This document shows, in pieces, positions 2,933 through 35,080 of a stretch of DNA of 64,000 nucleotides. This stretch comes from an uncultured Mailhella sp. (GTDB lineage: Bacteria; Desulfobacterota; Desulfovibrionia; Desulfovibrionales; Desulfovibrionaceae): the NCBI RefSeq assembly GCF_947631555.1, contig NZ_CANRLT010000001.1, positions 1 to 64,000 on the forward strand, read 5' to 3'. Each line of letters begins with the position of its first letter. Position 1 is the first letter of the stretch. The notes beneath the pieces were generated by a model. That model was not told the DNA's origin, made no database searches, and saw only the letters and a program-made list of their open reading frames with translations. The position numbers and the translations under genes are program-made.

Positions 2933-2950
2933 GATCGTTTATCCTTTTCG

Positions 2951-5431
<2,481 letters not shown>

Positions 5432-6720: not shown

Positions 6721-6758
6721 AGAAATTTTCCTGTTGTAGAGGTTAAGAGTCGGTCACT

Positions 6759-6809: not shown

Positions 6810-6822
6810 TAAAAAGAACGTC

Positions 6823-8477: not shown

Positions 8478-8536
8478 GTGAGCTGGCCGCGTGCCATCTG
8501 GCTTTGCCAGCTCAAGCATGGCTGCGGCCAGCTCAC
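8478..8536. repeat. Large GC-rich hairpin between dnaA and the recombinase-like gene
   Basis: Perfect 13-bp arms gtgagctggccgc (8478-8490)/gcggccagctcac (8524-8536), inner gccat/atggc and an apical ctggc-ttt-gccag hairpin. Confidence 0.75.
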
Positions 8537-8543
8537 GGGGCAT

Positions 8544-8567
8544 GAGGGGTAATCCGCGCGACCCCTC
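8544..8567. repeat. Second hairpin adjacent to the large one
   Basis: gaggggt (8544-8550)/acccctc (8561-8567), 10-nt loop. Confidence 0.6.
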
Positions 8568-8788
8568 TCCGTCGATTGAGGAGGCAATTGGCGGATGGGG
8601 CGACTGTGGATTGAAACATTAAACAGATATAAAAAAGAGTTCGGTCAGCTCCAGAACTCGTGCAATGAGTCAGAACTACGAACGATAGACGAAGCCGAAA
8701 GCCGGCAAAAGAAGAAAAAATTTTTTTTGAGAGTCCGAACGAGGCCTCTTTAAACGGGGTGCACAAAGACCCACGGCACAAGGGTTCG

Positions 8789-8808
8789 TTGACAGATAGA
8801 GTGTCGAT
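8789..8808 (+). repeat. 20-bp repeat, copy A
   Basis: ttgacagatagagtgtcgat; exact reverse complement at 8992-9011. Confidence 0.9.
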
Positions 8809-8833
8809 AAACCCCTGAAGCCGCAGGCATTCA

Positions 8834-8853
8834 TCAACAGATAGAGTGGCAAT
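8834..8853 (+). repeat. 20-bp repeat, degenerate direct copy A'
   Basis: tcaacagatagagtggcaat; shares acagatagagtg core with copy A, 45-bp period. Confidence 0.75.
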
Positions 8854-8991
8854 GAATCGTTGGCAATTCATACCCAAAATTGCCTCCAAGGGCAAGAAAA
8901 TTTTTTGGTACACGTTGTCCTCCAGTTTCACGAAAAAAATATTCTATAAATTCAAAGTATTATAAAATTAAGCCCGGCCATTTCGGCACTC

Positions 8992-9011
8992 ATCGACACT
9001 CTATCTGTCAA
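8992..9011 (-). repeat. 20-bp repeat, inverted copy B
   Basis: atcgacactctatctgtcaa; perfect reverse complement of 8789-8808. Confidence 0.9.
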
Positions 9012-9043
9012 TGAAGTGAACTTACGCAAAGGGTGACGGATTT

Positions 9044-9943
9044 ATGGTACGCGAGACCAAGGGCGGCGTTCCGGCCGCCGAATCGAACACCGTGCTGCAT
9101 GCGGCTCCGCTGTTCAACGACTTTGTTGAGGAGCGCTATCTGCCTTTTGTCCAGCAGAACAAGCGCAGCTGGAAGGTGGACCGCGGCAATCTGCAGCGGC
9201 ATATTCTGCCCTATCTTGGCGGATACCGGCTCTCCGACATTACCGCCGAGACGCTCCAGAGCTGGATTGATGCTCTCAGCCAAAGCGGGCTTGCGCACAG
9301 TACCTGCGTCCGCCAGTACTGGCTGGCCAAATACGTCATGACTTGTGCCATTCGCTGGGGATACCTGCCTGAGGACAGGATGCTCAAGACTCCCAGGTCG
9401 CTCAGTGTATCCACGGAACAAAGCCGCAGCCCCGTGCTGCTGGAGTATTCCGAGCTTGACCGGCTTCTCGGTATACTCAAAAAGTACCCGAACTGGTCCT
9501 CGGCCAACGCCATTTACCTGATGATCCTCACAGGGGCCAGCAAGTCCGAAATTCTCGGCCTTCGCTGGGAAGACGTGGATCTTGCCCGCGGCGTCCTCAC
9601 CGTGACCGCGAACTTTACCGGCCGGCAGCGGCTGATCCCGCTGAGCAGCGAAGCGCAGAAGTTTATTCAGAAGCTGCCGCGGCGCGAGGGCATCCCGTGG
9701 CTGTTCTTCACGAGCCTGGGGACGCACCTCACCTACATCACCCGCGACTGGTATCAGATACGCGAAGAGTTCGGGCATCCTGAACTACGTCTCCAGGATC
9801 TGCGCCATACCTTTGCAAACGTCCTGGTAAGCATGGGCGTCAACCGCGAGGGCCTGCGCACTATTTTAGGTCACTACAAGCCGGCAACGCTGACTTTTTT
9901 AAGCCGGCAGGCCTCTTCTGTTAAAAACGGAGAGGTTGCATGA
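9044..9943 (+). CDS. Tyrosine recombinase/phage integrase family protein, catalytic residues apparently substituted
   Basis: 299 aa; core-binding domain plus catalytic-domain landmarks (LTGASKSEILGLRWEDVD, LQDLRHTFAN, LGHYKPATLTF); stop overlaps ATG of the next gene. Confidence 0.85.
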   Translation: MVRETKGGVPAAESNTVLHAAPLFNDFVEERYLPFVQQNKRSWKVDRGNLQRHILPYLGGYRLSDITAETLQSWIDALSQSGLAHSTCVRQYWLAKYVMTCAIRWGYLPEDRMLKTPRSLSVSTEQSRSPVLLEYSELDRLLGILKKYPNWSSANAIYLMILTGASKSEILGLRWEDVDLARGVLTVTANFTGRQRLIPLSSEAQKFIQKLPRREGIPWLFFTSLGTHLTYITRDWYQIREEFGHPELRLQDLRHTFANVLVSMGVNREGLRTILGHYKPATLTFLSRQASSVKNGEVA

Positions 9944-15153: not shown

Positions 15154-16341
15154 ATGCGTACATGCAGAAAGTGTTTTGAGTATGCGTATGTTTTTGTTGG
15201 GGGAGATGTGCGGTGCTGTCCCTGGAATGGCATTGTTATCGGAAATCTTCTGAAAAATACCCTTGAAGAAATCTGGCAAGGCGAAAAAATAGAGGAAATT
15301 CGTCAAGCGTTCATGCGGGGAGAGCTTTTAGGATGTAATGAACAATATTGTCCTGATTGTATTAATGATACTGATAATATAAAAATATCAGAAGAGGAAA
15401 TGAAAATGCTTTATGATAAGCATTCTTCATGTCCAGAGTTTATTAGTTTGGCATATGATGAAAGATGCAACCATGCTTGCCCTAGCTGCCGACATGATTT
15501 TTTTCATCCAAATAAAGATTATATAGAGAATCTGCATAAAATTACAAAAAATATTGAGCCATATTTAGCGGGGGCGTCGCATATAGCAACCAATGGTATT
15601 GGAGACTTATTTGTATCCACAGAATTATTGGACATGATATCTAGATTTCATCCAGTCCGAAAGGACTTTAGTATGTTTATAGAAACAAACGGCGTGTTGT
15701 TCAAGGATAACTTGCATAAGCTGGAGCATTTGGCTGCATATCCCATAACGGTGTCCGTCACTCCGAACAGCTTTGATCGTGAGACATACAGATATCTGGC
15801 AGGAAGAGACGATTTGGCAAAATTTGAAGAGAGTATGTCGTTTATAAGCAATTTGAAGAGATCGGGAAAAATTCGCAGGATCCGGATGATCATGGTTATT
15901 CAGGACAGCAATTTCCGCCAGATTCCTGATTTTATTGCAAGATGTATTGACTACGATGCGGATGACATTGTGCTGCGTCCCATATTTCACTGGTTTGGCT
16001 CAACAGAGGATGAGATTCTGTACAAGAATGTACTCAACCCCTGTCATCCTTATCATAAGGAATATTGTGAGATACTTGAAAATCCGCTTTGCAAGGATTC
16101 AAGAGTTTTTAACTGGGGGTTTAATGTTCCGCAGGAAGCTATACCGTTTCCTACTTTGGCCATGAAGAGACGTTTCGAAAAATCTGATGAAGTATTAAAT
16201 CAGATACATTGCAGACTGGATGAAATGACAAGTTCGATAGACAGGTTATCGCGTTATCCCAAATGGCTTGTCAACTTGGGGGCTTGCTTTATTCCCAAAA
16301 AGAATAACAGGGTTCACCTCAGAAAGAAGTATTCTCGCTAG
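15154..16341 (+). CDS. Radical SAM protein with an N-terminal SPASM-like Cys cluster
   Basis: CxxxCxxC in DERCNHACPSCRHDF; N-terminal CRKC...CCPWNGIVIGNLLKNTLEEIWQGEK...CPDC resembles SPASM. Confidence 0.75.
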   Translation: MRTCRKCFEYAYVFVGGDVRCCPWNGIVIGNLLKNTLEEIWQGEKIEEIRQAFMRGELLGCNEQYCPDCINDTDNIKISEEEMKMLYDKHSSCPEFISLAYDERCNHACPSCRHDFFHPNKDYIENLHKITKNIEPYLAGASHIATNGIGDLFVSTELLDMISRFHPVRKDFSMFIETNGVLFKDNLHKLEHLAAYPITVSVTPNSFDRETYRYLAGRDDLAKFEESMSFISNLKRSGKIRRIRMIMVIQDSNFRQIPDFIARCIDYDADDIVLRPIFHWFGSTEDEILYKNVLNPCHPYHKEYCEILENPLCKDSRVFNWGFNVPQEAIPFPTLAMKRRFEKSDEVLNQIHCRLDEMTSSIDRLSRYPKWLVNLGACFIPKKNNRVHLRKKYSR

Positions 16342-17154: not shown

Positions 17155-18501
17155 ATGGCAATCTGGAAAGAAGAAGCAGAGGCGCGGAGTGCCATAAAGG
17201 ACATGGTTGCAGAGTATTACAGACAGTTTAAGTCTTCTGTCAGACCATTCACTCCCGGAGACAGGATCAGTTACGCCTCCCGCGTTTTTGATGAAAGGGA
17301 AATGTGTGCGCTGACGGATGCCATGCTCGATTTCTGGCTGACGACAGGACGCTTTGCTTCTGAATTTGAAAGAGAATTTGCTTCCTGGCTCAACGTCCGT
17401 TTCGCCCATCTTGTGAATAGCGGTTCTTCCGCCAATCTGATCGCGTTTATGGCGCTCACCGCGCCGGAGCTGGGTGAGCGGCAAATACGGCCGGGAGATG
17501 AGGTCATCACCGTGGCCTGCGGTTTTCCCACCACCGTGACGCCCATTCTTCAATATGGCGCTGTCCCTGTCTTCGTGGACGTGACCATTCCGCAGTACAA
17601 TATTGACGTTTTGCAGCTGGAAGCTGCGCTGAGTGAAAAGACGAAAGCCGTGATGGCCGCCCACACGCTGGGAAACCCTTTCGATCTTGCTGCGGTGAAG
17701 GCCTTCTGCGAAAAGCATGGTCTCTGGCTTGTGGAAGACAACTGCGATGCCCTCGGCTCGCAGTATACGCTGAATGGCGAAACCCGGTTCACAGGCACCT
17801 GGGGCGACCTGGGAACATCCAGCTTCTATCCGCCTCATCACATGACCATGGGGGAAGGCGGCTGCGTCTATACAAACAATTCCCGTTTAAGCCGCCTTAT
17901 CCTCAGCTTCAGAGATTGGGGGCGTGACTGCGTCTGTCCTTCCGGTCAGGATAATTTTTGCCGGCATCGCTTTACCGGTCAATTTGGCGAGCTTCCCCAG
18001 GGCTATGACCACAAATATGTATACAGTCACTTCGGCTATAACCTGAAAGTAACGGATATGCAGGCTGCCGTGGGCTGTGAGCAGCTGAAAAAGCTCCCGA
18101 ACTTTATCGAACGCCGTCAACATAACTGGCAGCGCCTGCACGAGGCCCTGTCCACCGCTTCCGACCGACTCATCCTCCCGGAAGCGGCTCCCTGCAGCAG
18201 CCCTTCCTGGTTTGGATTTCTTATCAGCCTGCGGCCGGAATCCGGGCTGAAGCGCAATGCCGTCACGTCCTTCGTGGAATCTCGCAACATACAGACACGT
18301 CTTCTGTTCAGCGGGAATCTCATCAAGCATCCCTGCTTTGACCAGATACGCGGAACCTCGGCGTACCGCATTGCGGGCAGTCTCGCCAACACGGACTTTA
18401 TTATGAACAACAGTTTCTGGGTGGGGGTCTGTCCCGGCATGACGGATGCCATGATCGACTATGAGGCGGAAACCATTCTGGAAGCTCTGGAGGCAAGATA
18501 A
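17155..18501 (+). CDS. rfbH: CDP-4-keto-6-deoxy-D-glucose 3-dehydrase
   Basis: DegT/AHBA fold; [14 protein letters not shown] with His replacing the PLP lysine, typical of RfbH/E1. Confidence 0.93.
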
Positions 18502-19355
18502 TGTCCCTCAGCAGTAAGCGTGAGCTTGAACAAATGGCGCTCAACATACGTTTGGGTATTATACGGGCCATCACATCAAATCATGGCGGACACATAGGCG
18601 GTTCGTTCGATCTCGCTGAAATGCTGGCCGTGGTCTATTCGGACTTCATGCGCGTCAATCCGGAAAAGCCGGACTGGGATCAGCGCGACTTCATGATTTT
18701 TTCTAAGGGACATGCCGGCCCCGCCCTTTACGCAGCTCTGGCGCTGAAAGGCTTTTTCCCAGAAGAACGCCTTGAGAATCTGAATAATCCCAATTCGCTG
18801 CTTCCGGGGCACTGCGATCGTAACCATGTGCCAGGCGTTGACGCGACTACGGGCAGTCTCGGCCAGGGGCTTTCCATCGCCTGCGGGGCGGCCCTTGCCG
18901 GGAAACTGCGCGGCACGGATCAGAGGGTGTTTTGCGTAACCGGTGACGGGGAATCCGCGGAAGGCCAGATATGGGAGGCCGCGCAGTTTGCTGCGCATTA
19001 CAGTCTGGACAATCTGATCGCCTTTCTGGACTGGAACAAGATGCAGATAGACGGCAGCAATGACGAAGTCATGCGCCTTGGGGATCCTGTGCGCAAATAT
19101 CAGGCGTTCGGCTGGAATGCCTGCCTTGTGAAAGGGAATGAGGTCATGGCCATTCAGCGTGCCGTGCGCCGGGCTGTGGAAGAGCCGAACGGCAAGCCCT
19201 CCATGATTGTGCTGGATACGGTAAAGGGAGAGGGGGCGCGCTGTATTGTGGAGATGGCAAACAACCACTGCATAGGATTCTCTGATGAATTGTGCGGCAA
19301 GGTCATGGAGGAACTGCGGGAACAGGGGCGGAAGCTCGGCATGGAGGTGGAATAA
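18501..19355 (+). CDS. Transketolase N-terminal (ThDP-binding) subunit, pair 1
   Basis: SKGHAGPALYAAL, GSLGQGLSIACGAAL, GDGESAEGQIWEA. Confidence 0.92.
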   Translation: MSLSSKRELEQMALNIRLGIIRAITSNHGGHIGGSFDLAEMLAVVYSDFMRVNPEKPDWDQRDFMIFSKGHAGPALYAALALKGFFPEERLENLNNPNSLLPGHCDRNHVPGVDATTGSLGQGLSIACGAALAGKLRGTDQRVFCVTGDGESAEGQIWEAAQFAAHYSLDNLIAFLDWNKMQIDGSNDEVMRLGDPVRKYQAFGWNACLVKGNEVMAIQRAVRRAVEEPNGKPSMIVLDTVKGEGARCIVEMANNHCIGFSDELCGKVMEELREQGRKLGMEVE

Positions 19356-19356
19356 G

Positions 19357-20325
19357 ATGAAGATCCGCTATACCGGGCAGAAGGCTGAAAAAGAGGTCTT
19401 TCAGGTTTTTAATGAAACCATGCGGCAGCTCATCGAGCAGGATGCAAGGGTCGTCTATCTGGATGCCGATCTCATGGGTTCGCTGAAAACACAGGAGCTT
19501 TGGAAACGTTATCCCGGGAACGTCCTGAACACCGGCATCCAGGAAGCCAATATGGTGGGCGTGGCCTGCGGGCTTTATCTGAATGGCTTTAAGCCCTATG
19601 TTCACAGCTTTTCTCCCTTTGCCAGCCGCCGTGTGTTTGATCAGGTTTTTCTCAGTGTGGGCTATGGCCGGAAGAGCGTGCGCGTGATCGGGTCGGATGC
19701 GGGGATCATGGCCACACACAATGGCGGCACCCACATGTGCTTTGAAGATATCGCCATGATGCGGACGGTACCGGGCGCGTGTGTGGTTGACATCAGCGAT
19801 CCGGTCATGTGCGGGGCATTTCTGAAAATGACGAGGGATCGCCCCGGCCTGACCTATATCCGTATGCCGCGCCGTGACTTGCCGGATATCTATCCGCCGG
19901 AAACAGCGTTCGCAGAAGGCAGGGGAATGCTGCTTCGGGAAGGTTCGGACATTACGCTTGTCGGCTGCGGCATCATGGTCGCCACCTGCCTTCAGGCGGC
20001 AGAACTTCTTGCCTCTGACGGTATAGAGGCTCGCGTCATAGATATTGTCACGGTAAAGCCTCTGGATGAGGAATTGCTCCTGGACAGCGCAGGAAGGACC
20101 GGAGCTGTGGTCACGGCCGAGAACGCCAGTGTCCTGGGCGGACTGGGCAGCGCTGTCGCAGAATACCTTTCCTCTGTTCATCCTGTTCCCGTGCTGAAGG
20201 TTGGGATCCAGGATTCTTTCGGCCGGGTAGGGACGGAATCTTTTCTGCGGAAGGCGTACGGTCTCACGCCGGAGTCTGTGGCCCTGCGCGCCAGGGAAGC
20301 TCTGAAATTGAAACAAGCCCTCTGA
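19357..20325 (+). CDS. Transketolase C-terminal subunit, pair 1
   Basis: NTGIQEANMVGVACGLYLNG...HSFSPFASRRVFDQ; ATG at 19357 directly after upstream stop. Confidence 0.9.
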   Translation: MKIRYTGQKAEKEVFQVFNETMRQLIEQDARVVYLDADLMGSLKTQELWKRYPGNVLNTGIQEANMVGVACGLYLNGFKPYVHSFSPFASRRVFDQVFLSVGYGRKSVRVIGSDAGIMATHNGGTHMCFEDIAMMRTVPGACVVDISDPVMCGAFLKMTRDRPGLTYIRMPRRDLPDIYPPETAFAEGRGMLLREGSDITLVGCGIMVATCLQAAELLASDGIEARVIDIVTVKPLDEELLLDSAGRTGAVVTAENASVLGGLGSAVAEYLSSVHPVPVLKVGIQDSFGRVGTESFLRKAYGLTPESVALRAREALKLKQAL

Positions 20326-21353: not shown

Positions 21354-22519
21354 AAAATATTATTAATTATGAAGCAAATATTGATTGCTTTGCGATGCAT
21401 AGGAATGTGAAATTGAACGCTCTTTATGAGCAGCGGGCCTCTGATTATGACGGAAAACCATGGATTACCGTTTTTATTCCGACATACAAAAGATATGACC
21501 TGTTTAAAGAAGCGTTGAAAAGCGTGATGAGGCAGAAGCCTGTTGATTTTCAATGGGATATCCTGGTTGTGGATAATGAACCGTATGAAGGGACTCCCAA
21601 TGCCGTGGAAGAGTATATCAGAACGCTTTCCGATATAACCATTCGCTACTTCCGTAATACGACAAATTTACGTCCCGGAGATAATTTTAATCGGGGAATC
21701 TATCTGGCGCGGGGAGAGTGGGTCATGATGCTTCATGATGATGATCTCTTATTCCCGAATAGTCTTGAAAAGATGGGCAGGGCCATACGCTTTCTGGAAA
21801 AGCAGGATAAAAAGCCTCTGGGGGGAATAGCCGCACAATATCAGTGTTTCTTACATGATCCGGAACAACCTCATGGAAACGATACCATGTTTAGACAGGT
21901 TGAAAACTTGGTATTAAATGAGCCGATGTCGTGGAGATTTTATAAATTAACGCACGCGAAAGTCTTGTTCACCGGTCATCCTGGAGGAAATATCCCCAGT
22001 ATAGGAACAACGTACAGGAGAGATGCGGTGCTTGAGGTCGGTGGATTCAATGATGATTTTGGAATTTCCGCCGATCTTATACTGTTTTATTGTCTGGAAA
22101 ATAAATTTTCAGTATATTCTACTTTGGAACCATATGGTTTTTACAGATTTGGAATAAATACAATGGTAAAAAAAGAATCAACATATAAAACAATTAAGGC
22201 AGGTTTTGATTTTAGAGAATATGTATATAATAAAAATATATTTCATAAATTATGGGGCTGGCTATTCAGGAGTGCTCATTACTATTTTTTCACAGAAGCA
22301 GTTCTCAATCAAAGGAAAATTGGTTCCAGAAAGTTTATACGATTCAGCGATTATGCTTCAATTTATGATAAAAAACCAAATAAATTTTTTTATAAACACA
22401 TATATAAACATGGAGTATTGAATGCATATAACAAGATAAAACGTTGGGAAGTTAAACGCCTTGAAAAAAGAGCAAGGCAGGAAGGTTTGGTGAAGAAAAA
22501 TGAAGAATATTTTTCGTAA
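21350..22519 (+). CDS. Glycosyltransferase family 2
   Basis: PWITVFIPTYKRYDLFKEALKSV, MLHDDDLLF. Confidence 0.88.
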   Translation: MKNIINYEANIDCFAMHRNVKLNALYEQRASDYDGKPWITVFIPTYKRYDLFKEALKSVMRQKPVDFQWDILVVDNEPYEGTPNAVEEYIRTLSDITIRYFRNTTNLRPGDNFNRGIYLARGEWVMMLHDDDLLFPNSLEKMGRAIRFLEKQDKKPLGGIAAQYQCFLHDPEQPHGNDTMFRQVENLVLNEPMSWRFYKLTHAKVLFTGHPGGNIPSIGTTYRRDAVLEVGGFNDDFGISADLILFYCLENKFSVYSTLEPYGFYRFGINTMVKKESTYKTIKAGFDFREYVYNKNIFHKLWGWLFRSAHYYFFTEAVLNQRKIGSRKFIRFSDYASIYDKKPNKFFYKHIYKHGVLNAYNKIKRWEVKRLEKRARQEGLVKKNEEYFS

Positions 22520-23294
22520 TCTTCGCAAGGATGCTCTGTATCTGTCCCATAAATGTCGGGACGGCAACCTTCAGAGCGTGTTTTCCTGTCTTGATATTGT
22601 CTGGGTGCTGTATGACAGGATCATGAACTGGTCTCCGGAAAAGGCACAGGACGCGGACCGTGATTTCTTCATCATCAGCAAGGGGCAGGCAACGCTGGCC
22701 CTGTACCCAGTGCTGATTGAGAAGGGGTTCTTTGACAAGGAAGAGGTAGCCTCCGAAATCGGCCTGTTTAACAGCCGCTATTGCATACAGACGGATGTCA
22801 CCAAGTTCTCCGGCGGCGTGGAAAACAGCGCCGGCTCGCTGGGGCATGGGCTGCCGTTTGCCGTAGGTATTGCCTATGCCGGCAGGATTAAAGGGTCGCC
22901 CTCTCAGACCTTTGTGCTGTGCGGTGACGGCGAGTTCTGTGAAGGCACCATGTGGGAAGCCTGCCTTTTTGCCGCGGCGAAGAAGCTGGATAACCTGTGC
23001 GTGATCGTGGACGACAATGATTCCGTCGGGGCCATGATCGACATGGGCAGCATGCGTCTCAAGCTGGAAGCCTTCGGTTTCGATGTCTTTTCCGTCAACG
23101 GGCATGATCCTGATGCGCTGGAAGCCGTGTTCCGCAGGGCGGGAGGCCTCAAGAACGGCAGGCCCAAGGCCGTGCTGGCCAGAACCGTGCGCGGATACGG
23201 CAGTCCGACCATGATGGAGCACGACATCTGGTTCCACAAGGCGCCTGACGCCGAAGAACTGGCGATGCTGGAGAAGGAGGTGGAGGCGTTTTGA
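22500..23294 (+). CDS. Transketolase N-terminal subunit, pair 2
   Basis: ISKGQATLALYPVL, GSLGHGLPFAVGIAYAG, CGDGEFCEGTMWEA. Confidence 0.9.
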   Translation: MKNIFRNLRKDALYLSHKCRDGNLQSVFSCLDIVWVLYDRIMNWSPEKAQDADRDFFIISKGQATLALYPVLIEKGFFDKEEVASEIGLFNSRYCIQTDVTKFSGGVENSAGSLGHGLPFAVGIAYAGRIKGSPSQTFVLCGDGEFCEGTMWEACLFAAAKKLDNLCVIVDDNDSVGAMIDMGSMRLKLEAFGFDVFSVNGHDPDALEAVFRRAGGLKNGRPKAVLARTVRGYGSPTMMEHDIWFHKAPDAEELAMLEKEVEAF

Positions 23295-24172
23295 GGCGTG
23301 CCTTTTTGAAGCGTGTGGCGGACATGATCCGCAAGGAAGAGGACACGGCGTTCTTCACTGTGGATATCGGCATGTGGGCCATCCGGGACGTACTGGCCGA
23401 ATTTCCCGAGCGCTGCATGAATGTGGGCATCTACGAGGATGGTATGTTCAGCATCGCGGCGGGTATGGCCAGCCGCGGTCTCGTGCCGACCATTTTCGGC
23501 ATTCAGCCCTACCTCATCGAGCGCACACTGGAACAGATCAAGATGGATCTTGCGTACCAGAAGCGCGGCGTCAACGTGGTCGGGACCGGCGCGGCTGTGG
23601 ATTATTCCAAATACGGGTATTCCCACTACTGCGCCGAGGATGTGCAGCTCATCAAGATGCTGCCGGGCTGCGAGTTCGTGGCTCCGGGCACGGCAAAGCA
23701 GTTTCTCCAGCTTTTCAACGCCTCGTACCGGAATGGACATCCCACTTTTTTCCGGATCAGCGATCACCCCAACCTGCGGTATGACCCGGATGTTCGCTTC
23801 GGAAAGGCCGAGGTGATGCAGACGGGAAGCCGGGCCACGGTGCTGGCGGTTTCCGTCATGCTGGACATGGTCATGGAAGCCTGCGCCGGGGAAGATGTCA
23901 CCGTGCTCTATTACACCACGCTGGAGCCTTTCGACTGGGAAACACTGGCGGAGAACTGCCCTTCCGGCAAGCTTTTGCTTGTTGAGCCGGAGTATGAAGG
24001 GAGCCTGCTTCACGACGTACACAAGGCCCTGCCGGGCCGCGCCCTGCGGGTGGAACAGGTGGCCTTTCCGCGCGAAATTTTCCGGAATTACGGAACCTAT
24101 GACGAAAAGATGCGGCATTACGGGCTGGGTTCTTTGAACATCGCCGCGAAGCTGAGAGCGTTGCGGGACTGA
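23291..24172 (+). CDS. Transketolase C-terminal subunit, pair 2
   Basis: MNVGIYEDGMFSIAAGMASRG; TTG start overlapping upstream stop (TTGA). Confidence 0.88.
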   Translation: MRRAFLKRVADMIRKEEDTAFFTVDIGMWAIRDVLAEFPERCMNVGIYEDGMFSIAAGMASRGLVPTIFGIQPYLIERTLEQIKMDLAYQKRGVNVVGTGAAVDYSKYGYSHYCAEDVQLIKMLPGCEFVAPGTAKQFLQLFNASYRNGHPTFFRISDHPNLRYDPDVRFGKAEVMQTGSRATVLAVSVMLDMVMEACAGEDVTVLYYTTLEPFDWETLAENCPSGKLLLVEPEYEGSLLHDVHKALPGRALRVEQVAFPREIFRNYGTYDEKMRHYGLGSLNIAAKLRALRD

Positions 24173-26047: not shown

Positions 26048-26099
26048 TTATGGCTAAGCACAGCTTTCGTCATACCTGTTTAATGCATAAGGAGGAATC

Positions 26100-27206
26100 A
26101 TGTCTCTGAAGAACTGGCTGCATACCATGAAGGGCAAGTGCCTGCCGCCGTCAGCGCGTAAGGTTATGCGTATGGAAAAGACGCTTCTTTGCCGTTTGGA
26201 TGAATTGTCAGCGCAGCACGGCTATCTCGATAGGCAGATTAAGGCACTATCGGCAAGAAATGATCTGCTGTTCTGGTTTTCGCAGATGCGCGAAGGTGAA
26301 GGCCTCGCACGAACCAAACGAAATTTCTTTGAAGGGCTTGTCCCCGAAGAAGGCCTTATTCGGGGAACGCAGCTTGTTATGTTGAATTTAATGGACTTCA
26401 TTGATGATGTTTGTACAGAAAACGGGCTTACCTATTTTTTATCTCATGGCACACTTATAGGCGCGGTCAGGCATAAAGGCTTTATACCATGGGATGATGA
26501 TACTGATGTCAGCATGATGCGCGAGGACTTTTTAAAATTTAAGAATATCATAAAAACGCAGTCGCGGTATCGTCTTGTGGATTATTATGAGGCAGGATGC
26601 AGAAAAGAGTCCTGTGGTCGTTTTGCAAAATTGGTAGATACAAATCTGCCTTTGCATATTTTTGTTGATGTTTTTGTTTATGACTGGGAGGACACGAAGA
26701 GTGACGAGGAAGCCTCTCGGAAATATTATGCCAAAAGAACAGAATTAGGTGAGAGAATATGGGAGACAGCGCAGAGATCAGGCTGCGCGGCAGAATCTCG
26801 GCCCATTGAAGACCCGGCTATTAAATCTCAGCTTGATGCTGTTTTTGATGAGTATGTCTATCCTTATCCAAAAGAGGGAACAGGCATTCAGTGGGGAGTG
26901 GATTTGTTTTGGAAGCGAAATATTTATTGCATAAAGAAAGAATATGTCTTTCCTGTCAAACGCATGCCGTTTGAGGCAAATGTTCTTAGAGAGGACGAGC
27001 GAGCGTCTGGTAAAAAAGAAAAGAAGAGAGAATTTTGTGTGCCGCAGAATCCTGAAGTGCTTCTCTCTCTCGCTTATGGTAACATCATGGAAATTCCAGC
27101 TCGCTGTTATGCCTATTTTCATGCAAAGTATTTTGATTTTTACGGCAAGGAAGACATTATAGAGGAATATCTTAAAACATGGGGCTGCGCTGATCAAAAG
27201 GGGTAA
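26100..27206 (+). CDS. LicD-family phosphotransferase, paralogue 1
   Basis: FLSHGTLIGAVRHKGFIPWDDDTDVSMMREDF LicD signature; N-terminal coiled-coil-like extension. Confidence 0.9.
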   Translation: MSLKNWLHTMKGKCLPPSARKVMRMEKTLLCRLDELSAQHGYLDRQIKALSARNDLLFWFSQMREGEGLARTKRNFFEGLVPEEGLIRGTQLVMLNLMDFIDDVCTENGLTYFLSHGTLIGAVRHKGFIPWDDDTDVSMMREDFLKFKNIIKTQSRYRLVDYYEAGCRKESCGRFAKLVDTNLPLHIFVDVFVYDWEDTKSDEEASRKYYAKRTELGERIWETAQRSGCAAESRPIEDPAIKSQLDAVFDEYVYPYPKEGTGIQWGVDLFWKRNIYCIKKEYVFPVKRMPFEANVLREDERASGKKEKKREFCVPQNPEVLLSLAYGNIMEIPARCYAYFHAKYFDFYGKEDIIEEYLKTWGCADQKG

Positions 27207-27286
27207 GGTATGGAAGGTAGGGGCATGGTTAAATCCATGCTCCCTTTACAACATTGCCGAACTGAAATTCACCAGGGGGCAAGACA

Positions 27287-27480
27287 GTGGTTATCTGAAT
27301 AATCGGGCTGTCCGGGATGGGAAAGACCACCCTTGCGGAAGAAGTTGTGCGCCTTGCCAGACAGGACGGCAGGACCGTGACGCTGCTGGATGGCGATGTC
27401 ATGCGCAGAGTGTGGGGCGACAACCTCGGGCATATGCTGGAGGTGCGCAAAAAAACTCAGGCCGTGTCCACGAGAGGATA
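27287..27480 (+). pseudogene. Truncated remnant of the APS-kinase-like gene between the two licD copies
   Basis: Near-identical to start of 28665-29726 gene, but ATG->GTG, in-frame TGA at codon 4 (ctgg->ctga), and breaks off after about 190 bp. Confidence 0.85.
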
Positions 27481-27512
27481 CGTCAACCCTGTTTAATGCA
27501 TAAGGAGGAAAC

Positions 27513-28592
27513 ATGTCTCTGAAGAACTGGCTGCATACCATGAAGAGTAAGTGCCTGCCGCCGTCGGCGCGTAAGGTTATGCGTATGGAAAAGACGCTTC
27601 TTTGCCGTTTGGATGAATTGTCAGCGCAGCACGGCTATCTCGACGGGCAGATTAAAGCGCTATCGGCAAGAAATGATCTGCTGTTCTGGTTTTCGCAGAT
27701 GCGCGAAGGGGAAGGCCTAGCGCGAACCAAACGAAATTTCTTTGAAAGACTTGTCCCCGAAGAAGGTCTTATTCGGGGGGGGCAGCTTATTATGTTGAAT
27801 TTGTTGGATTTTTTGGATGATGTTTGCACAGAAAACGGACTTGCCTATGTTTTAGCTCATGGAACACTCTTAGGCGCGGTCAGGCATAAGGGCTTTATTC
27901 CATGGGATGATGATGTTGATATATTCATGATGCGTGAAGACTTTTTAAAATTCGAGAAAATAATAAAAAATCAGTCAAGATATTGTATTATGGATTTATA
28001 TTTTGTGGATGATAAAAAAAATAAATGTGCTCGTAGTAAAGTGTTAAGAGATACAAAGATTAATTTGAATATTTGGATTGATATACTAATTCTTGACAAC
28101 ACAATAATTGATGATGAGTCATCCCGTAAAAAACAAGCCAAAAGAATAGAATTAAGTAAGAAAGTGTGGGATATTACGCAAAAATCAGGCTGGGCGGTAA
28201 AGTTTTACCCTATTTATAACCTGGCTATTAAATCTAAACTTGATGCTGTTTTTGATGAGTATATATATCCTTGTCAAAAAGAGGGAACATTTATTGAGTC
28301 CGTGTGGGGCTGGTATTCATTTAAGAAAGAAGATGTTTTTCCCGTCAAACGTATGCCGTTTGAGGCAAATGTTCTCAGGGAGGATGAGCGAGCGTCTGGT
28401 AAAAAAAAGAAAAAGAGAGAATTTTGTGTGCCAAAGAATCCTGAAGCACTTCTCTCTCGTTATGGTGACATCATGAAAATTCCGGATGGACCTTATTCCT
28501 ATAGACATGCAAAGTATTTTGATTTTTACGGCAAGGAAGACATTATAGAGGAATATCTTAAAACATGGGGCTGCGCTGATCAAAAGGGGTAA
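27513..28592 (+). CDS. LicD-family phosphotransferase, paralogue 2 (contains G8 tract)
   Basis: Near-identical N- and C-termini to paralogue 1; VLAHGTLLGAVRHKGFIPWDDDVDIFMM. Confidence 0.9.
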   Translation: MSLKNWLHTMKSKCLPPSARKVMRMEKTLLCRLDELSAQHGYLDGQIKALSARNDLLFWFSQMREGEGLARTKRNFFERLVPEEGLIRGGQLIMLNLLDFLDDVCTENGLAYVLAHGTLLGAVRHKGFIPWDDDVDIFMMREDFLKFEKIIKNQSRYCIMDLYFVDDKKNKCARSKVLRDTKINLNIWIDILILDNTIIDDESSRKKQAKRIELSKKVWDITQKSGWAVKFYPIYNLAIKSKLDAVFDEYIYPCQKEGTFIESVWGWYSFKKEDVFPVKRMPFEANVLREDERASGKKKKKREFCVPKNPEALLSRYGDIMKIPDGPYSYRHAKYFDFYGKEDIIEEYLKTWGCADQKG

Positions 28593-28664
28593 GGTGTGGG
28601 CATGGTTAAATCCATGCTCCCTTTACAACATTGACGAACTGAAATTCACCAGGGGGGCAACACA

Positions 28665-29726
28665 ATGGTTATCTGGATAATCGGACTGTCCGGAGTGGGT
28701 AAGACTACTCTTGCTGAAGAAGTTGTGCGCCTTGCCAGGCAGGACGGCAAGACCGTGGCGCAGCTGGATGGCGATGTCATGCGCAGCGTATGGGGCGACA
28801 ACCTCGGGCATACGCTGGAGGATCGCAAAAAAAACGCCGACCGTCTCCACGGATTATGCCGATACCTGGAAGGAGAGGGCGTGCATGTGGTGGCACCGGT
28901 TCTATCCCTGTTTCAGGAAACTAGGGACAAGAACAGGCGGGAACTGCGCGATTACTATGAGGTATACATCAAGTGCCCCATGGAGAACCTGGTTCTGCGG
29001 GATTCCAAGGGACTGTATGCTCGGGCAAGGCGGGGTGAAATCGAGCTGCCCGGAGTCAACATGCGTTTTGAAGAACCATGCGCTCCCGATCTGGTTATTG
29101 AAAATGCGGGTTCCCGTAACGAATTGCTGAGTTACGCCCCCATGCTGGCTCAAAAGCTGGTCCGGTCGGGAAGGATGGCCTATTCCTACACTGCGAGGGA
29201 TTTATTGCATGAGCCGGAAAACTATTTTTACGCGCCGTTTGGCGGCAAGGATTTTGTCAAGGCATGGAAGCGGTGCCGGGAAGAATCATTGACCGCCTGG
29301 GCCGGAGCGGAAGCCATGGGACCCTGCCCCGGCGATTTGACGGAAACGGAGCGTGAATTGTGGCGACTGGCTTCAACAGGCCAGAAACCGACAGGGAAGG
29401 ATGCCGTCCTGATTGAAGGATTGCTCCGGCGTTTTGAGGTCAGTAAAAAACTGCCTGCCACTCTGGTGCCGCCACGGTATTCCTGTGTGCGGGCGAGTGA
29501 CCGTTTGACCCGTCCTCATGCCTACGCCTGCCTTGGGGCGATTCTGGCCTTGAGCGCTGCGGAAGAACCGGACATGCGCCAGCTCAACTGCCTTTTGAAA
29601 ATCAATGACCTTCTTTGCTCGCTGTCCAGCCTTCCCTCTGAACTTTTTCCCCTTGCCCGCCGCGCTCTTGCCGGCGAGCTGACTGCCGTTCAGGGCTGGG
29701 CGCAAAGGAGCCATCTATGCAAATAA
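28665..29726 (+). CDS. APS-kinase-like protein, likely CDP-phosphoramidate kinase (Cj1415-like) with C-terminal extension
   Basis: P-loop GLSGVGKTTLAEEV, LDGDVMR, RARRGEIELPGVNMRFEEP; co-located with Cj1416-1418-like genes. Confidence 0.8.
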   Translation: MVIWIIGLSGVGKTTLAEEVVRLARQDGKTVAQLDGDVMRSVWGDNLGHTLEDRKKNADRLHGLCRYLEGEGVHVVAPVLSLFQETRDKNRRELRDYYEVYIKCPMENLVLRDSKGLYARARRGEIELPGVNMRFEEPCAPDLVIENAGSRNELLSYAPMLAQKLVRSGRMAYSYTARDLLHEPENYFYAPFGGKDFVKAWKRCREESLTAWAGAEAMGPCPGDLTETERELWRLASTGQKPTGKDAVLIEGLLRRFEVSKKLPATLVPPRYSCVRASDRLTRPHAYACLGAILALSAAEEPDMRQLNCLLKINDLLCSLSSLPSELFPLARRALAGELTAVQGWAQRSHLCK

Positions 29727-30451
29727 GCGATGTTGCGCTTGTATGCGCGGACAATGTTCGGGCGCGCTGCTATATGCAGGCATTCACGGCGCGGAAACTG
29801 TTGCCCTCCTTCTGCTTGATATTGCCCGCTGCGGAATCGGGAAATCCGGACCCGAGACGGAGGCGTCTGTCACCGGCAGAGGTTCCCTGGGGCAGATTTG
29901 ATCCTGAGCGGGGCATCCGGGAGCTGTGTGAGGAAGCGGGTGTCCCTTGCGAGTTTGCGCCGGCTCATGACATCAACGCGCCGGAGACGATACGGCACAT
30001 TGCCGAACTTACACAGCAGGTCTGTGTGTATGCGGGATTTGGCGGCGTTATTCTACGGGCCGATCTTTTAAACTGCGGGAAGAAATTTCTGCACGCCCAT
30101 GGCGGCTGGCTTCCCTCTTATAAAGGAAGTACCACTAACTATTACAGTGCGCTGCAGGAAAACTTCTGTGCCGCTTCCGCCATGTTCCTGAATGAGGAGA
30201 TCGACCGTGGCGTGGTGTTGTGCCGCCGCCGCTTTGCTGTGCCCGCAGATATGTCACTCATGGATTATGTGCATGACAATGTTTTCCGGGCCGAAGTGCT
30301 GTGCGAAGTGTTGGCCGCGCATGTGAAAAGCCGGGGCTGGCCGGAGTCCGTTGTCGAAAATACCCCGACCAATCCCTATTTCGTCATGCATCCGCTTTTA
30401 AGACATATGGCTATTCTTGGTAGTAAAGGAGCAGATTTGCCATGCGCATAA
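29717..30451 (+). CDS. Formyltransferase-fold protein
   Basis: HAHGGWLPSYKGSTTNYYSAL resembles the formyltransferase HPxxLPxYRG motif; EEIDRGVVL. Confidence 0.65.
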   Translation: MQISDVALVCADNVRARCYMQAFTARKLLPSFCLILPAAESGNPDPRRRRLSPAEVPWGRFDPERGIRELCEEAGVPCEFAPAHDINAPETIRHIAELTQQVCVYAGFGGVILRADLLNCGKKFLHAHGGWLPSYKGSTTNYYSALQENFCAASAMFLNEEIDRGVVLCRRRFAVPADMSLMDYVHDNVFRAEVLCEVLAAHVKSRGWPESVVENTPTNPYFVMHPLLRHMAILGSKGADLPCA

Positions 30452-31245
30452 CGTATCGAAAAAATGATTCGCTTGCTTACTGGACACAGCGTTGGGCCGA
30501 TGTTGAAGCGGACGAACCGATGGAAAACCGTGCCTCATATCCCTTGAAATACGCTCTGGAAGCAGTGGCCCGCTCATCAGCGCCAAGGGGTGGACGTATC
30601 TGTGAAGCCGGGTGCGGCAATGGGCGGCTGGTACGCTATTTTATGCGCAGCGGCTGCAATATAAGAGGTTTTGATTTTATTCCCGAGGCCATCAGTAAAA
30701 TTAAAAGCGTTGAACCTGATGCCGAAGTGGAAACAGGAGACATTCTTAATCTTTCCTATCCCGATGAATATTTTGATACCTTTCTTGCCTTTGGATTGTA
30801 TCACAGCTTGCCGTATGAACTTCAGGATCAGGCGATGCAGGAAACGTTCAGGGTTTTAAAACCTGGTGGCGTTTTGTGTGCATCGTTTCGGGCGGACAAC
30901 CTGTGTACTCGTATATCAGACTATCTGCGGCAACCTGCCCGGAAGGAAGAGAAAAAGAAGTTCCACAAGCTTAATCTGACACGTCGTGAATGGGAACATG
31001 TTTTACTTCGGAATGGTTTTACTGTAGAAAAGATGGACTGTGTTGTTAATATGCCTATACTCTATAAATTTAAATGCTTTCGACATGCAACACACAAAAA
31101 TTTTGATGAACATAAAGGTCGTTGTGAAGGGTATTTGCTTAACTTACCTGGTAAATTACTGTGGAAAGTTTTATATATAATTTTCGGGGGGGGGAGATGT
31201 GTAATGTTTTTGTTGTTCAGGCTCGAAAAATCAAGAGTTAAATAG
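30442..31245 (+). CDS. Class I SAM-dependent methyltransferase (contains G9 tract near the 3' end)
   Basis: GRICEAGCGNGRLVRYF motif I, FDTFLAFGLYHSLPYE, ETFRVLKPGGVLCASF. Confidence 0.88.
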   Translation: MRITYRKNDSLAYWTQRWADVEADEPMENRASYPLKYALEAVARSSAPRGGRICEAGCGNGRLVRYFMRSGCNIRGFDFIPEAISKIKSVEPDAEVETGDILNLSYPDEYFDTFLAFGLYHSLPYELQDQAMQETFRVLKPGGVLCASFRADNLCTRISDYLRQPARKEEKKKFHKLNLTRREWEHVLLRNGFTVEKMDCVVNMPILYKFKCFRHATHKNFDEHKGRCEGYLLNLPGKLLWKVLYIIFGGGRCVMFLLFRLEKSRVK

Positions 31246-31269
31246 ACCTTAATCTTTCTTGAGGCCATC

Positions 31270-33651
31270 ATGAATACACCTGCCTTTTCTTTCACCTCCA
31301 AGGCCGACACTCTGCTTGCCCTTTCTGCCCACGAAGAGTTGCACATTCCGCCTGTGCATGTTTTTACCGTGGCGCAGTGGCAGTCCGGACAGGAGGCTGT
31401 CCTCCGCAGGCTGGCGGAGGCATTTTCCCCGGAGGAAGTGCTGGCCGTGCGCTCATCCTGCCGCAGAGAGGATTCTGCCGAGTCATCCGCCGCCGGAGCC
31501 TATCTCTCCATCCTCAATGTTGCGCTCTCGGATCCAGTCGCCCTGCGCGATGCCGTGGAGAAGGTCATGGTCTCCTACGGCGGGGCGGAACCCGATGATC
31601 AGGTGCTGTGCCAATCCATGATCCGGAATGTCACCGTCACCGGCGTCATCATGACCCGTGCGCTCAATGACGGCGCACCGTATTACGTCATCAACTACGA
31701 TGATGAATCGGGCCGGACAGACACCATCACGGGCGGACACAGCGTCAGCAAAACGGTTTCCGTGTACCGTGGGGTAAGCGACCGCGACTTTGATTCTCCC
31801 CGCCTGCGCGGTTTTGTAGCGCTGGCCCGCCGCCTGGAAGAGCTGTGCGGCAGTGACAGCCTGGACATCGAATTCTGTCAGGACGCGGATAATGTCCTGC
31901 ATCTGCTCCAGGTCCGGCCCATGTGCACACAGCGGCACTGGCCGGAACAGAACGAGTCCATCCGCGAGTTCATCGGGTATGGCGCGGACTTTATCGCGGC
32001 GCGAACCGGCCCGTCTTCAAACCTGTTCGGACAGCGGGCCATTCTGGGAGTGATGCCGGACTGGAATCCGGCGGAGATCATCGGCCTGCTGCCGCATCCG
32101 CTGGCAAGCTCGCTGTACCGCAGCCTGATCACCGCGCGGGTATGGAGCGAAGCGAGGGAACGCATGGGCTACCGTCCCCTGCCCGCCACGGAACTCATGG
32201 TTCTGCTGCTCGGCCGTCCCTATATTGACACCCGCGCAAGCTTCAATTCCTTTTTGCCGAACGGCCTTGATCCCGTTACATGCGAAGCTCTGGTGTCTGC
32301 CTGGCTGGAACGGCTTGAGGCGCAGCCCCAGCTGCATGACAAAATTGAGTTTGAAATCGCGCAGACGGTCCTGGACTTCTGCTTTGACACTCATTTGGAC
32401 GAGCGTTATCCGGGACTGCTCAGCTCCCAAAGGCGCGAGGAGTTCCGGGACTCGCTCCGGCATCTGACCGTCCGCTGTCTGGACGAGTCTCCTTCCGGCT
32501 CCATGAAGCAGGCCTTTGACGCCGTGACCGAACTGCGCAACCGGCAGGCGGGCAGAATTCAGGTCGGGCCGGAACAGCGCCTTCCCCTGTCCGCCGTCAA
32601 CGCACTGCTGGAAGAATGCCGCGAGTTAGGTACCCTGCCCTTTTCCATTCTGGCCCGCCATGCCTTCATGGCGGAAAGCCTGCTGCGCACGGCAGTGAAG
32701 CGGGGCGCGCTGCTGCCCGAGCGGATGCGGGCGTTCAAACTGTCCGTCAAAACCATTTCCGGGGAACTGTCCGGCGAATTTCTGGAGGTGTGCAAGGGCC
32801 AGAGGGACGCTTTGGGCTTTATGCGCAAGTACGGCCATCTGCGGCCGAGCAGCTATGACATCTTATCTCCCCGCTACGCGGATCGCGAAAATCTTTTCAG
32901 CGATGCGCAGGACCTTGTTGTCAGGGAACAGCCCAACGAAGTCTTTGCTCCCAGCCCGGAAGAGCGGCGCGACCTTCAGCTTCTGCTGACGGAAAGCGGC
33001 CTGCCTGTCACGCCGGAAGGTCTGTTCCATTATGCACGCCGGGCCATTGCGGGGCGGGAACTGGCCAAGTTTGTCTTCAGCCGGAATCTGTCGGACGTGC
33101 TGGAAATCGTGGCGCTGTGGGGCGAGGATATGGGGTTCAGCCGGGACGACGTGTCCTTCATGGATATACAGGCCATTCTGGACTCGATTACCCATCTCTG
33201 CCCGGAGACACCCAGGGAGCATTTTGCCCGGCATATAGCGGCCAACAGGGAAATTTTTGCCAAAAGCGAAAATATCAGACTCGGCTACCTGATCCGCTCC
33301 GTCAGAGATGTTTATATCGTTCCCCAGCACAGGGCCGAACCCAACTACATCGGCGCGGGCCGGATAGAGGGAAGCCTCGTGCGGTTGTTTGCCGACAGCC
33401 CCTGCAGCATGGATCTGTCGGGAAAGATTGTGTGCATTGAAAACGCCGATCCCGGCTTTGACTGGATTTTCACGCGACAGATTGCGGGGCTTGTCACCAA
33501 GTTTGGAGGCACAAACTCCCATATGGCCATACGCTGCGCCGAATACGGCCTGCCCGCCGCCATCGGTGTGGGCGAGCAGATCTTTCAGTCTCTGGCCGGA
33601 GCCAAAAGGGCGCTGCTTGCCCCTCAGTCTGCCACACTCAAACCCTGCTGA
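31270..33651 (+). CDS. PEP-synthase/PPDK-related kinase, likely L-glutamine kinase (Cj1418-like)
   Basis: N-terminal ATP-grasp RSSCRREDSAESSAAGAYLSILNV; C-terminal phospho-His motif GGTNSHMAIRCAEYGLPAAIGVG; neighbours match the Cj1415-1418 set. Confidence 0.82.
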   Translation: MNTPAFSFTSKADTLLALSAHEELHIPPVHVFTVAQWQSGQEAVLRRLAEAFSPEEVLAVRSSCRREDSAESSAAGAYLSILNVALSDPVALRDAVEKVMVSYGGAEPDDQVLCQSMIRNVTVTGVIMTRALNDGAPYYVINYDDESGRTDTITGGHSVSKTVSVYRGVSDRDFDSPRLRGFVALARRLEELCGSDSLDIEFCQDADNVLHLLQVRPMCTQRHWPEQNESIREFIGYGADFIAARTGPSSNLFGQRAILGVMPDWNPAEIIGLLPHPLASSLYRSLITARVWSEARERMGYRPLPATELMVLLLGRPYIDTRASFNSFLPNGLDPVTCEALVSAWLERLEAQPQLHDKIEFEIAQTVLDFCFDTHLDERYPGLLSSQRREEFRDSLRHLTVRCLDESPSGSMKQAFDAVTELRNRQAGRIQVGPEQRLPLSAVNALLEECRELGTLPFSILARHAFMAESLLRTAVKRGALLPERMRAFKLSVKTISGELSGEFLEVCKGQRDALGFMRKYGHLRPSSYDILSPRYADRENLFSDAQDLVVREQPNEVFAPSPEERRDLQLLLTESGLPVTPEGLFHYARRAIAGRELAKFVFSRNLSDVLEIVALWGEDMGFSRDDVSFMDIQAILDSITHLCPETPREHFARHIAANREIFAKSENIRLGYLIRSVRDVYIVPQHRAEPNYIGAGRIEGSLVRLFADSPCSMDLSGKIVCIENADPGFDWIFTRQIAGLVTKFGGTNSHMAIRCAEYGLPAAIGVGEQIFQSLAGAKRALLAPQSATLKPC

Positions 33652-33656
33652 AAAAC

Positions 33657-34304
33657 ATGACCATGATCGCCATAACCATGCGCATGATGCGCCACAGCTA
33701 CGCCAGCGGCACACAGGAAGTACGGGACGCGCTGGCCCAGGACTGGTGGAGTTTTCTGAACCGTGCCCTGCCGGGCGTGCCGGTACTGCCGCTGCCCAAC
33801 ATCGGCAGCGAAGCCGTGGCCCTGGCGCAGGCGCTTTCCGTGTCCGGTCTGATCCTCACAGGCGGGGATGACTGGGGGGTGTTTCCCCGGCGGGATGCCA
33901 CTGAAGAAGCCCTGTTCCGCTGGGCGGAACGGAAGAATTTGCCCGTTCTCGGGGTGTGCCGGGGCGCGCAGATGATCAACCGTTTTATGGGGGGGCGTAC
34001 GAGTTTCGGCTTTGGAGCAGAACATGCGGGCACCCGCCATGCGCTCCACGTCGTTCCCCGCGCCGGAGAATTGCCGCTTTCCCCGGTGCCTCCGGAGGTC
34101 AACTCCTGGCACAACGGCGGCATACGGCCGGACGATCTTGCTACCGGTCTCATCCCGTGGGCCTTTGCCCCGGACGGCAGCGTGGAAGGCTTTTGCCGTG
34201 CGGATGGCAGCATAACGGGCATCATGTGGCATCCGGAGAGGGAACAAACGGCACAGGCTCACGATATTAACCTTTTTCAGATCTTGAATCGGGGGAACGC
34301 ATGA
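33657..34304 (+). CDS. Class I glutamine amidotransferase-fold hydrolase, likely gamma-glutamyl-CDP-amidate hydrolase (Cj1417-like)
   Basis: Nucleophile motif LGVCRGAQMIN and GIMWHPERE His/Glu; G7 tract between them. Confidence 0.82.
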   Translation: MTMIAITMRMMRHSYASGTQEVRDALAQDWWSFLNRALPGVPVLPLPNIGSEAVALAQALSVSGLILTGGDDWGVFPRRDATEEALFRWAERKNLPVLGVCRGAQMINRFMGGRTSFGFGAEHAGTRHALHVVPRAGELPLSPVPPEVNSWHNGGIRPDDLATGLIPWAFAPDGSVEGFCRADGSITGIMWHPEREQTAQAHDINLFQILNRGNA

Positions 34305-35080
34305 AAGCAGCAGGAATTATTCTGGCGGCAGGGCGCGGATCGCGCATGAGGAATCTGACGGAGGAACGCCCCAAGTGCATGGTGGAGCTGGCGGGCAAGC
34401 CCTTGCTGCACTGGCAGCTGAGTGCCCTGCGAAGGGCAGGAATCAGCAGCATTCTGGTCGTGCGCGGATATCTGGCCGGGTGCCTTGAGGCAAGCGCCGC
34501 CACGGGTGAGTTTGCCACCGCGGAAAATCCGCGCTGGGAGCGGACGAACATGCTGTCCACACTGCTGTGCGCGGACGAGTTTGCCCGTAAGAGCTTTGCC
34601 CTTGGCGTGGAGCGCCTCATCGTCTCCTATTCGGATATCGTCTATCACTGGGAGCATATAGGTGCGCTGCTGTCGTGTCCCGAGGATATCGCCATTACCT
34701 ATGACACAGAATGGGAAGCCCTGTGGACATTGCGCTTCGGCGATCCGCTGCTGGACGCGGAAACCTTTCGTCAGGAACATGGGCTGCTGCGCGAAATCGG
34801 CGGCAAGCCGGCTTCCCTGGCGGATATACACGGCCAGTACATGGGGCTTTTGAGTTTCAGTCAGACCGGATGGAACATCATGACCAAGCTGTGCGCTGAC
34901 CTGGGCGAGGCGGTGGACAAAACGGATATGACCAGCTTTTTGCGCCTGCTGCTGTCCAGGTCAATCGAGGTTGGCGCGGTGTCTGTGGCCGGCAAATGGT
35001 GCGAGGCAGACAGCGGCGCGGATATCCAGGTATACGAAAAGGCGCTGGAGCAGAGGGGCTGGTCCCATGACTGGCGATAA
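34301..35080 (+). CDS. Nucleotidyltransferase, likely CTP:phosphoglutamine cytidylyltransferase (Cj1416-like)
   Basis: GIILAAGRGSRMRNLTEERPKCMVELAGKPLLHWQL NTP-transferase motif; ATGA overlap with upstream gene. Confidence 0.82.
   Translation: MKAAGIILAAGRGSRMRNLTEERPKCMVELAGKPLLHWQLSALRRAGISSILVVRGYLAGCLEASAATGEFATAENPRWERTNMLSTLLCADEFARKSFALGVERLIVSYSDIVYHWEHIGALLSCPEDIAITYDTEWEALWTLRFGDPLLDAETFRQEHGLLREIGGKPASLADIHGQYMGLLSFSQTGWNIMTKLCADLGEAVDKTDMTSFLRLLLSRSIEVGAVSVAGKWCEADSGADIQVYEKALEQRGWSHDWR

Follow-up and report, generated by a model that had tools for sequence, protein, structure and literature searches.

A predicted phosphoramidate-donor operon with a putative tailoring cassette and neighbouring LicD genes in an uncultured Mailhella species

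Phosphoramidate decoration of Campylobacter jejuni affects host-cell invasion and phage infection. A 2019 review (PMC6429109) treats O-methyl phosphoramidate (MeOPN) on surface sugars as a speciality of Campylobacter. Its methylation and transfer were still open in 2025 (PMC11800397, PMC12409886), with no function assigned to Cj1419 and Cj1420 (PMC11800397). Unmethylated phosphoramidate has been reported on the lipopolysaccharide (LPS) of Xanthomonas and Shewanella (PMC3907429); the phosphorus–nitrogen (P-N) group thus has chemical precedent outside Campylobacter, and methylation is not to be assumed. Systems built on LicC, PntC and LicD are also described (PMC6697681). Here we analyse a 64,000-nucleotide stretch of DNA from an uncultured, sulfate-reducing Mailhella sp. 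of the Desulfovibrionaceae (positions 1 to 64,000 of contig NZ_CANRLT010000001.1, hereafter the window). Following the pathway of C. jejuni, an operon at positions 28665–35080 probably produces an activated phosphoramidate donor with which a surface glycan is decorated; a tailoring cassette is added, and LicD proteins would transfer the group. We put the probability of this reading at about 80%.

The operon shares with the C. jejuni MeOPN pathway (Cj1415–Cj1418) the same four enzyme families, among them a kinase with a phospho-His swivel domain and the GATase and cytidylyltransferase folds, and likewise has a nearby methyltransferase and a surface polysaccharide cluster. An adenosine 5′-phosphosulfate (APS) kinase-family domain (APSK, 28665–29114) is joined in one reading frame (28665–29726) to an all-helical domain X (29115–29726). 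A formyltransferase-fold protein (FMT, 29717–30451), a class I S-adenosylmethionine (SAM) methyltransferase (MT, 30442–31245), a kinase of the phosphoenolpyruvate (PEP)-utiliser type (KIN, 31270–33651), a class I GATase-fold hydrolase (GAT, 33657–34304) and a LicC-like cytidylyltransferase (NTP, 34301–35080) follow, all on the plus strand. The successive gaps between the six genes (-10, -10, +24, +5 and -4 bp) are operon-like, and GAT and NTP overlap by 4 bp. Within the order APSK-X-FMT-MT-KIN-GAT-NTP, the last three genes (the triad) repeat the order Cj1418-Cj1417-Cj1416 and keep the catalytic residues. Compared by family models and gene order, the window differs from the C. jejuni pathway in the fusion of APSK to X and in an FMT with a His-x-His motif; it also has a pair of LicD genes and no recognised homologue of Cj1421/Cj1422. 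The reading frames of the original prediction all lie where it had placed them and match APS_kinase, PPDK_N plus PEP-utilizers, Peptidase_C26/GATase and NTP_transf_3 domains. Its motifs (GGTNSHMAIRCAEYG for the phospho-His swivel, GVCRGAQ and WHPERE) are present as quoted, and its last three genes are consecutive and overlapping or nearly so. Its APS-kinase-like protein is an APS kinase over residues 1–150 and carries X as a second, helical domain; the families it listed are present, joined by the FMT gene between APSK and MT that it had left out.

Relatives of the kinase were sought in 85,462 species genomes. Such a protein is encoded by at least 576 stretches of public genomes, and 80 loci were kept; all co-occurrence counts below come from these kinase-centred loci, except for searches with X in 247 genomes of the family and 321 gammaproteobacterial genomes. 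The kept loci belong to Desulfovibrionaceae, Pseudomonadota, Bacteroidota, Verrucomicrobiota, Planctomycetota, Omnitrophota, Acidobacteriota, a DPANN archaeon and others, and plasmids also carry the module. In the 52 loci that have 5 kb or more of flanking sequence on both sides, the triad is together in 49, APSK accompanies the kinase in 40, and all four families are found in 39. The recurrence of the triad shows that its co-location is not due to chance. The original prediction had taken occurrence outside Campylobacter as a mark of rarity; with at least 576 stretches the module is widespread, and the LPS of Xanthomonas and Shewanella already offered examples of the group (PMC3907429). No Campylobacter locus is among the best 80 of the at least 576 stretches. 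The Desulfovibrionaceae carry the module unevenly: it is present in 28 of 247 genomes and 12 of 44 genera, and is missing from all 18 congeners listed for the window's organism. A phage trait was considered and rejected, as viral contigs gave one kinase relative only. A search of open PMC papers found none that describes the module's distribution, a negative that, confined to such papers, carries little weight. Phosphoramidate chemistry of this kind, if shared by many other bacteria, would amount to a general strategy for the surface coat. The comparative set also yields recurrent partners of the module, namely two methyltransferase families, sulfotransferase-fold, TagF-like and LicD transferases, and the new X/FMT pair. 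As separate observations, a complete module (APSK, MT, kinase, cytidylyltransferase and GATase) lies on a contig that binning assigned to a DPANN archaeon (L105:8707-13849), and a Pseudomonas module (L101:3958-7704) adjoins FlgK and flagellin genes, a setting that hints at flagellin glycan decoration.

The window kinase gives a full-length match to NF004508 (900 bits, cut-off 501) and scores 30.7 bits against the PEP synthase model TIGR01418, short of its equivalog cut-off of 739.75. A Pfam scan found the ATP-grasp and phospho-His mobile domains and no PEP-utilizers_C; the PEP/pyruvate barrel is thus absent. The catalytic His751 is kept in 89 of 90 relatives. A kinase closer to canonical PpsA or pyruvate phosphate dikinase (PPDK), or one lacking the catalytic His, would have told against the original prediction; neither is the case here. 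A profile search with the kinase reaches PEP synthase-type structures, and others that we take to be rifampin phosphotransferase (PDB 5FBS, 5HV1 and 2OLS represent these types). They have the ATP-grasp and phospho-His swivel architecture in common with the window kinase, whose middle substrate domain is mostly unmatched and which lacks the PEP/pyruvate barrel. We predict from its sequence that it is an L-glutamine kinase. The same enzyme logic could serve another payload, if the kinase acted on a different amide or amine and the product were some other CDP-activated small molecule. What has been established is the fold family, and kinases of the PPDK/RPH type vary widely in acceptor; moreover, a triad on an Agrobacterium vitis plasmid (L026:7914-13003) sits with LysE exporters and a CDP-alcohol phosphatidyltransferase, with no glycan genes nearby. 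We nevertheless consider another payload quite unlikely. The motifs VRSS, MPDWNPAE, HDKxEF, GHLRP and the His751-bearing GGxxSHMAIR are near-invariant in the alignment of 90 sequences, and the invariance of those in the middle domain argues for one shared substrate; the kinase is also constantly paired (49 of 52 loci) with a GATase whose best family is a gamma-glutamyl-CDP-amidate hydrolase. The A. vitis module may, for its part, make a soluble phosphoramidate compound.

Several kinases show variant architectures. In L003, L004, L023, L024, L092, L095, L098, L102 and L106 there is an extra N-terminal region of ∼200–250 residues, which is nucleotidyltransferase-like in several loci and often belongs to modules without a nearby APSK. 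A kinase-GATase fusion on a phage-labelled faecal scaffold (L027:652-3684) links two steps of the pathway, and a reading frame in L036:1973-5188 suggests a second such fusion. In the Mailhella genome itself, a 45-residue kinase-like piece at a contig start (G000:C66:3-137, L116) is 76% identical to residues 311–355, which suggests either an assembly break or a remnant.

For the GATase, the best NCBIfam family is NF045546, 'gamma-glutamyl-CDP-amidate hydrolase' (91.5 bits, next best family 46.4), and Cys101, His192 and Glu194 are kept in 82 of 83 sequences. The nearest solved structure to the cytidylyltransferase (NTP_transf_3) is LicC (PDB 1jyk), and two LicD genes adjoin the operon; a LicC-like cytidylyltransferase working with a LicD phosphotransferase is the logic of the LicA-LicB-LicC-LicD phosphocholine and PntC phosphonate systems. 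On these grounds 34301–35080 could be a LicC or PntC whose product LicD transfers, with kinase and GATase as unrelated passengers. We regard this as hardly credible. Neither choline kinase nor PEP mutase was found in the genome, for which reason the phosphocholine and phosphonate readings were rejected, and the cytidylyltransferase tracks the kinase and GATase across phyla in which LicD is almost never present. In contrast to the Lic and PntC systems, activation in the window would proceed through the kinase/GATase pair.

The APSK domain (PF01583, 115.6 bits) scores 140.8 bits against NF004041 (cut-off 127) and falls below the cut-offs of the true apsK models, a pattern repeated by the other module APS kinases tested. 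Its P-loop and other residues are conserved in 60 sequences. Membership of the APS_kinase family could mean that the protein makes 3′-phosphoadenosine 5′-phosphosulfate (PAPS) for sulfated glycans, independently of the other genes, and sulfotransferase-fold proteins do lie near several related modules. Sulfation is, in our view, very unlikely, given the failure to reach the apsK cut-offs and the frequent company of the kinase (40 of 52 loci); furthermore, the genome's only APS-kinase genes are those in its two modules (the second is described below) and one remnant. We predict instead, at the level of family, that the domain is a CDP-phosphoramidate 3′-kinase like Cj1415. The sulfotransferase-fold proteins beside APSK-bearing modules (L028:6903-9676, L072:16480-17706, L080:9012-9983 and L128:12190-13281) could themselves suit a 3′-phosphorylated CDP-phosphoramidate as a PAPS-like donor.

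Taken together, these assignments suggest a route whose substrates and intermediates we infer from C. jejuni. With phospho-His751 as an intermediate, the kinase would phosphorylate the amide nitrogen of L-glutamine, the predicted CTP:phosphoglutamine cytidylyltransferase (Cj1416-like) would join the product to CTP, and the GATase-fold hydrolase (Cj1417-like) would strip the glutamyl group to leave CDP-phosphoramidate. Phosphorylation of its 3′-hydroxyl by the APSK domain would give a PAPS-like donor, so that the product of the module may be CDP-phosphoramidate or its 3′-phospho form. X, FMT and MT together probably modify the P-N group or aid its transfer, and the LicD pair would attach the group to the polysaccharide that genes at ∼10–25 kb produce.

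Several points weigh against this route. Orthology to Cj1415–Cj1418 is drawn from family models and gene order. NF004508 models an uncharacterized protein and bears the name 'hypothetical protein', so that the match does not by itself name or prove glutamine as the substrate. The GATase lies well under the 250-bit equivalog cut-off of NF045546, as do the GATases of all other modules tested (75–127 bits); since best family and catalytic triad agree while the cut-off is missed, our claim is that the enzyme works like the curated equivalog, not that it is one. A surface glycan is the presumed acceptor of the group. Finally, LicD is found near the module in only two other loci (L047 and L055), in neither case in the same position. 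The original view of a Cj1415–Cj1418-type module is borne out in family, gene order and active sites, and goes too far in calling the module MeOPN-type, rare and complete.

X and FMT constitute a conserved extension of the phosphoramidate module. Residues 151–353 of the APSK protein match a gene that stands alone elsewhere, mostly between the APSK and FMT genes, and X and FMT occur together in 30 of 31 X loci. As a separate protein X belongs to no Pfam family. X was aligned in 32 rows, and its AlphaFold2 model is all-helical, with a predicted local distance difference test (pLDDT) score of 86.7, and a fold search against the PDB gave no match at E ≤ 0.001. In the search not centred on the kinase, X was found in 8 of 247 family genomes, and all eight belong to the 28 that bear the kinase (hypergeometric P 1e-8, kinship ignored); X lies within 4 kb of the kinase in seven of them, and the eighth is a fragmented assembly. 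The 321 gammaproteobacterial genomes held X in two, both with the kinase nearby, one being the search centre itself. FMT (PF00551, 29.6 bits; model pLDDT 88.6) matches the ArnA/Fmt fold at E ∼1e-12. It has LHxHxGxLP in place of the canonical NxHxSLLP, and so departs from the Asn-x-His...Asp triad of N10-formyltetrahydrofolate formyltransferases: His126 stands in place of the catalytic Asn throughout the 31 sequences, and His128 and Asp163 are invariant. Because the Asn is replaced in every member, its chemistry has probably changed.

We tentatively suggest, at somewhat less than even odds, that X and the His-x-His FMT carry out an undescribed extra phosphoramidate step, for example by modifying the P-NH2 group with a C1 or acyl unit or by transferring that group. 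This step would be conserved from Desulfovibrionaceae to Pseudomonas. Here it would work together with a LicD-type transferase, and the genome would thereby make two chemically different phosphoramidate decorations from its two modules. The pair could instead perform ordinary sugar N-formylation, as ArnA and FdtF do, and merely neighbour the module, which would touch the extension and leave the core as it is. The fold is that of a formyltransferase, amino-sugar formylation is frequent in polysaccharide loci, and canonical-type formyltransferases are present in the same relatives (L053:15276-16094). However, the exchange of Asn for His throughout the family, the tracking of the module by the pair across phyla and the absence of X from kinase-free genomes among the 247 make plain sugar formylation rather unlikely. 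A ∼415-residue protein (cluster c17) found in APSK-MTc12 modules that lack X and FMT was considered as a replacement of the pair and was not equated with it; FGDSYTF and GGHFS motifs and an N-terminal hydrophobic stretch, read by eye, resemble an SGNH-type membrane protein. This protein has no Pfam match and lies between APSK and MT (L070:14503-15744, with homologues in L064, L074, L078 and L083).

The window MT (PF08241, 63.1 bits) belongs to a family, MTc12, that also occurs in distant X-type modules. The original prediction took the co-located methyltransferase to fit an O-methylation step. 'MeOPN-type' overstates the case: methylation is unproven, and the MT is of another family than that of the two-MT modules, which most resemble the C. 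jejuni locus. From its sequence the MT could be a phosphoramidate O-methyltransferase or serve another tailoring step.

The two LicD proteins (LicD 1, 26100–27206; LicD 2, 27513–28592; both plus strand) match PF04991 with 95.9 and 93.5 bits (gathering cut-off 22.6), and are the only LicD genes in the genome. LicD 2 ends 72 bp upstream of the intact APSK gene. Between the two LicD genes lies a truncated APS-kinase gene (27284–27472, plus strand), which keeps about the first 60 codons, matches PF01583 and has one in-frame TGA. In a blastn comparison, the unit 26068–27472 is 82% identical to 27481–28851, each running from before LicD into the APSK gene; a single tandem duplication therefore took in both LicD and the beginning of apsK. 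As choline kinase and PEP mutase are lacking, LicD needs another donor, and the CDP-linked product of the module is the obvious candidate. From position and conservation, the pair is the best candidate for transferring the phosphoramidate group to polysaccharide, and we propose it as a functional replacement of a Cj1421/Cj1422-type transferase. To call the module complete was an overstatement, since no Cj1421/1422-like transferase was identified, although no search with the Cj1421/Cj1422 sequences was made. In relatives without LicD, transferases of other kinds lie close to the module: TagF-like, CDP-alcohol or sulfotransferase-fold.

The last part of the same contig holds, on the minus strand, a second, different phosphoramidate module (G000:C1:96064-99790; L115:16064-19790), which allows an internal comparison within one genome. 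Its kinase is cut by the contig end, and the 62 C-terminal residues that are left share 76% identity with the window kinase; its GATase and cytidylyltransferase are 60% and 73% identical to the window copies, and two methyltransferases and an APS kinase complete it. Its layout, KIN-GAT-NTP-MT-MT-APSK, recurs in L139, and the layouts of L137 and L028 are close to it. These relatives and the second module share APSK and a triad 60–76% identical with the window module, but have MTc5 methyltransferases and lack X, FMT and LicD. A tree of cytidylyltransferases places the window copy and the second-module copy as sisters (97/92) inside a clade of 12 rows, the other 11 of which are of the MTc5 type. 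Conversely, the window APSK, FMT and MT proteins are closest to those of X-type modules. The full order APSK-X-FMT-MTc12-KIN-GAT-NTP is repeated in L063 (a distant proteobacterium) and L120 (Desulfovibrionaceae), which differ from the window in that X is a separate gene, LicD is absent and the triad is only distantly related. On these groupings, the window module is a hybrid of the MTc5 and X types. GC content varies in line with this, at 0.60–0.63 in the triad, 0.44 in MT and 0.39–0.44 in LicD, though APSK and FMT are intermediate at 0.56. This organism is likely to have two phosphoramidate donors or decorations.

Upstream of the operon, a surface-polysaccharide cluster at ∼10–25 kb encodes UDP-galactopyranose mutase, homologues of RfbF, RfbG and RfbH (CDP-sugar pathway), glycosyltransferases, two split transketolase pairs and an aldolase-like enzyme. 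The transketolase pairs (18501–20325 and 22500–24172) and the aldolase-like gene stand beside the CDP-sugar genes and may serve to make an unusual sugar, branched or higher-carbon. Scans for promoters and terminators gave no signal above chance level, and the gene that comes next, 319 bp 3′ of NTP, reads as queA. Also within the polysaccharide cluster, a radical SAM-type protein (15154–16341) shows a weak match to a tungsten cofactor oxidoreductase maturase. The cluster is immediately preceded by a replication-origin neighbourhood (500–9943; translations read by eye) with gyrA-, gyrB-, dnaN- and dnaA-like genes followed by a tyrosine recombinase (9044–9943); the lower-GC stretch of this neighbourhood has a GC content of 0.51, compared with 0.60 downstream.

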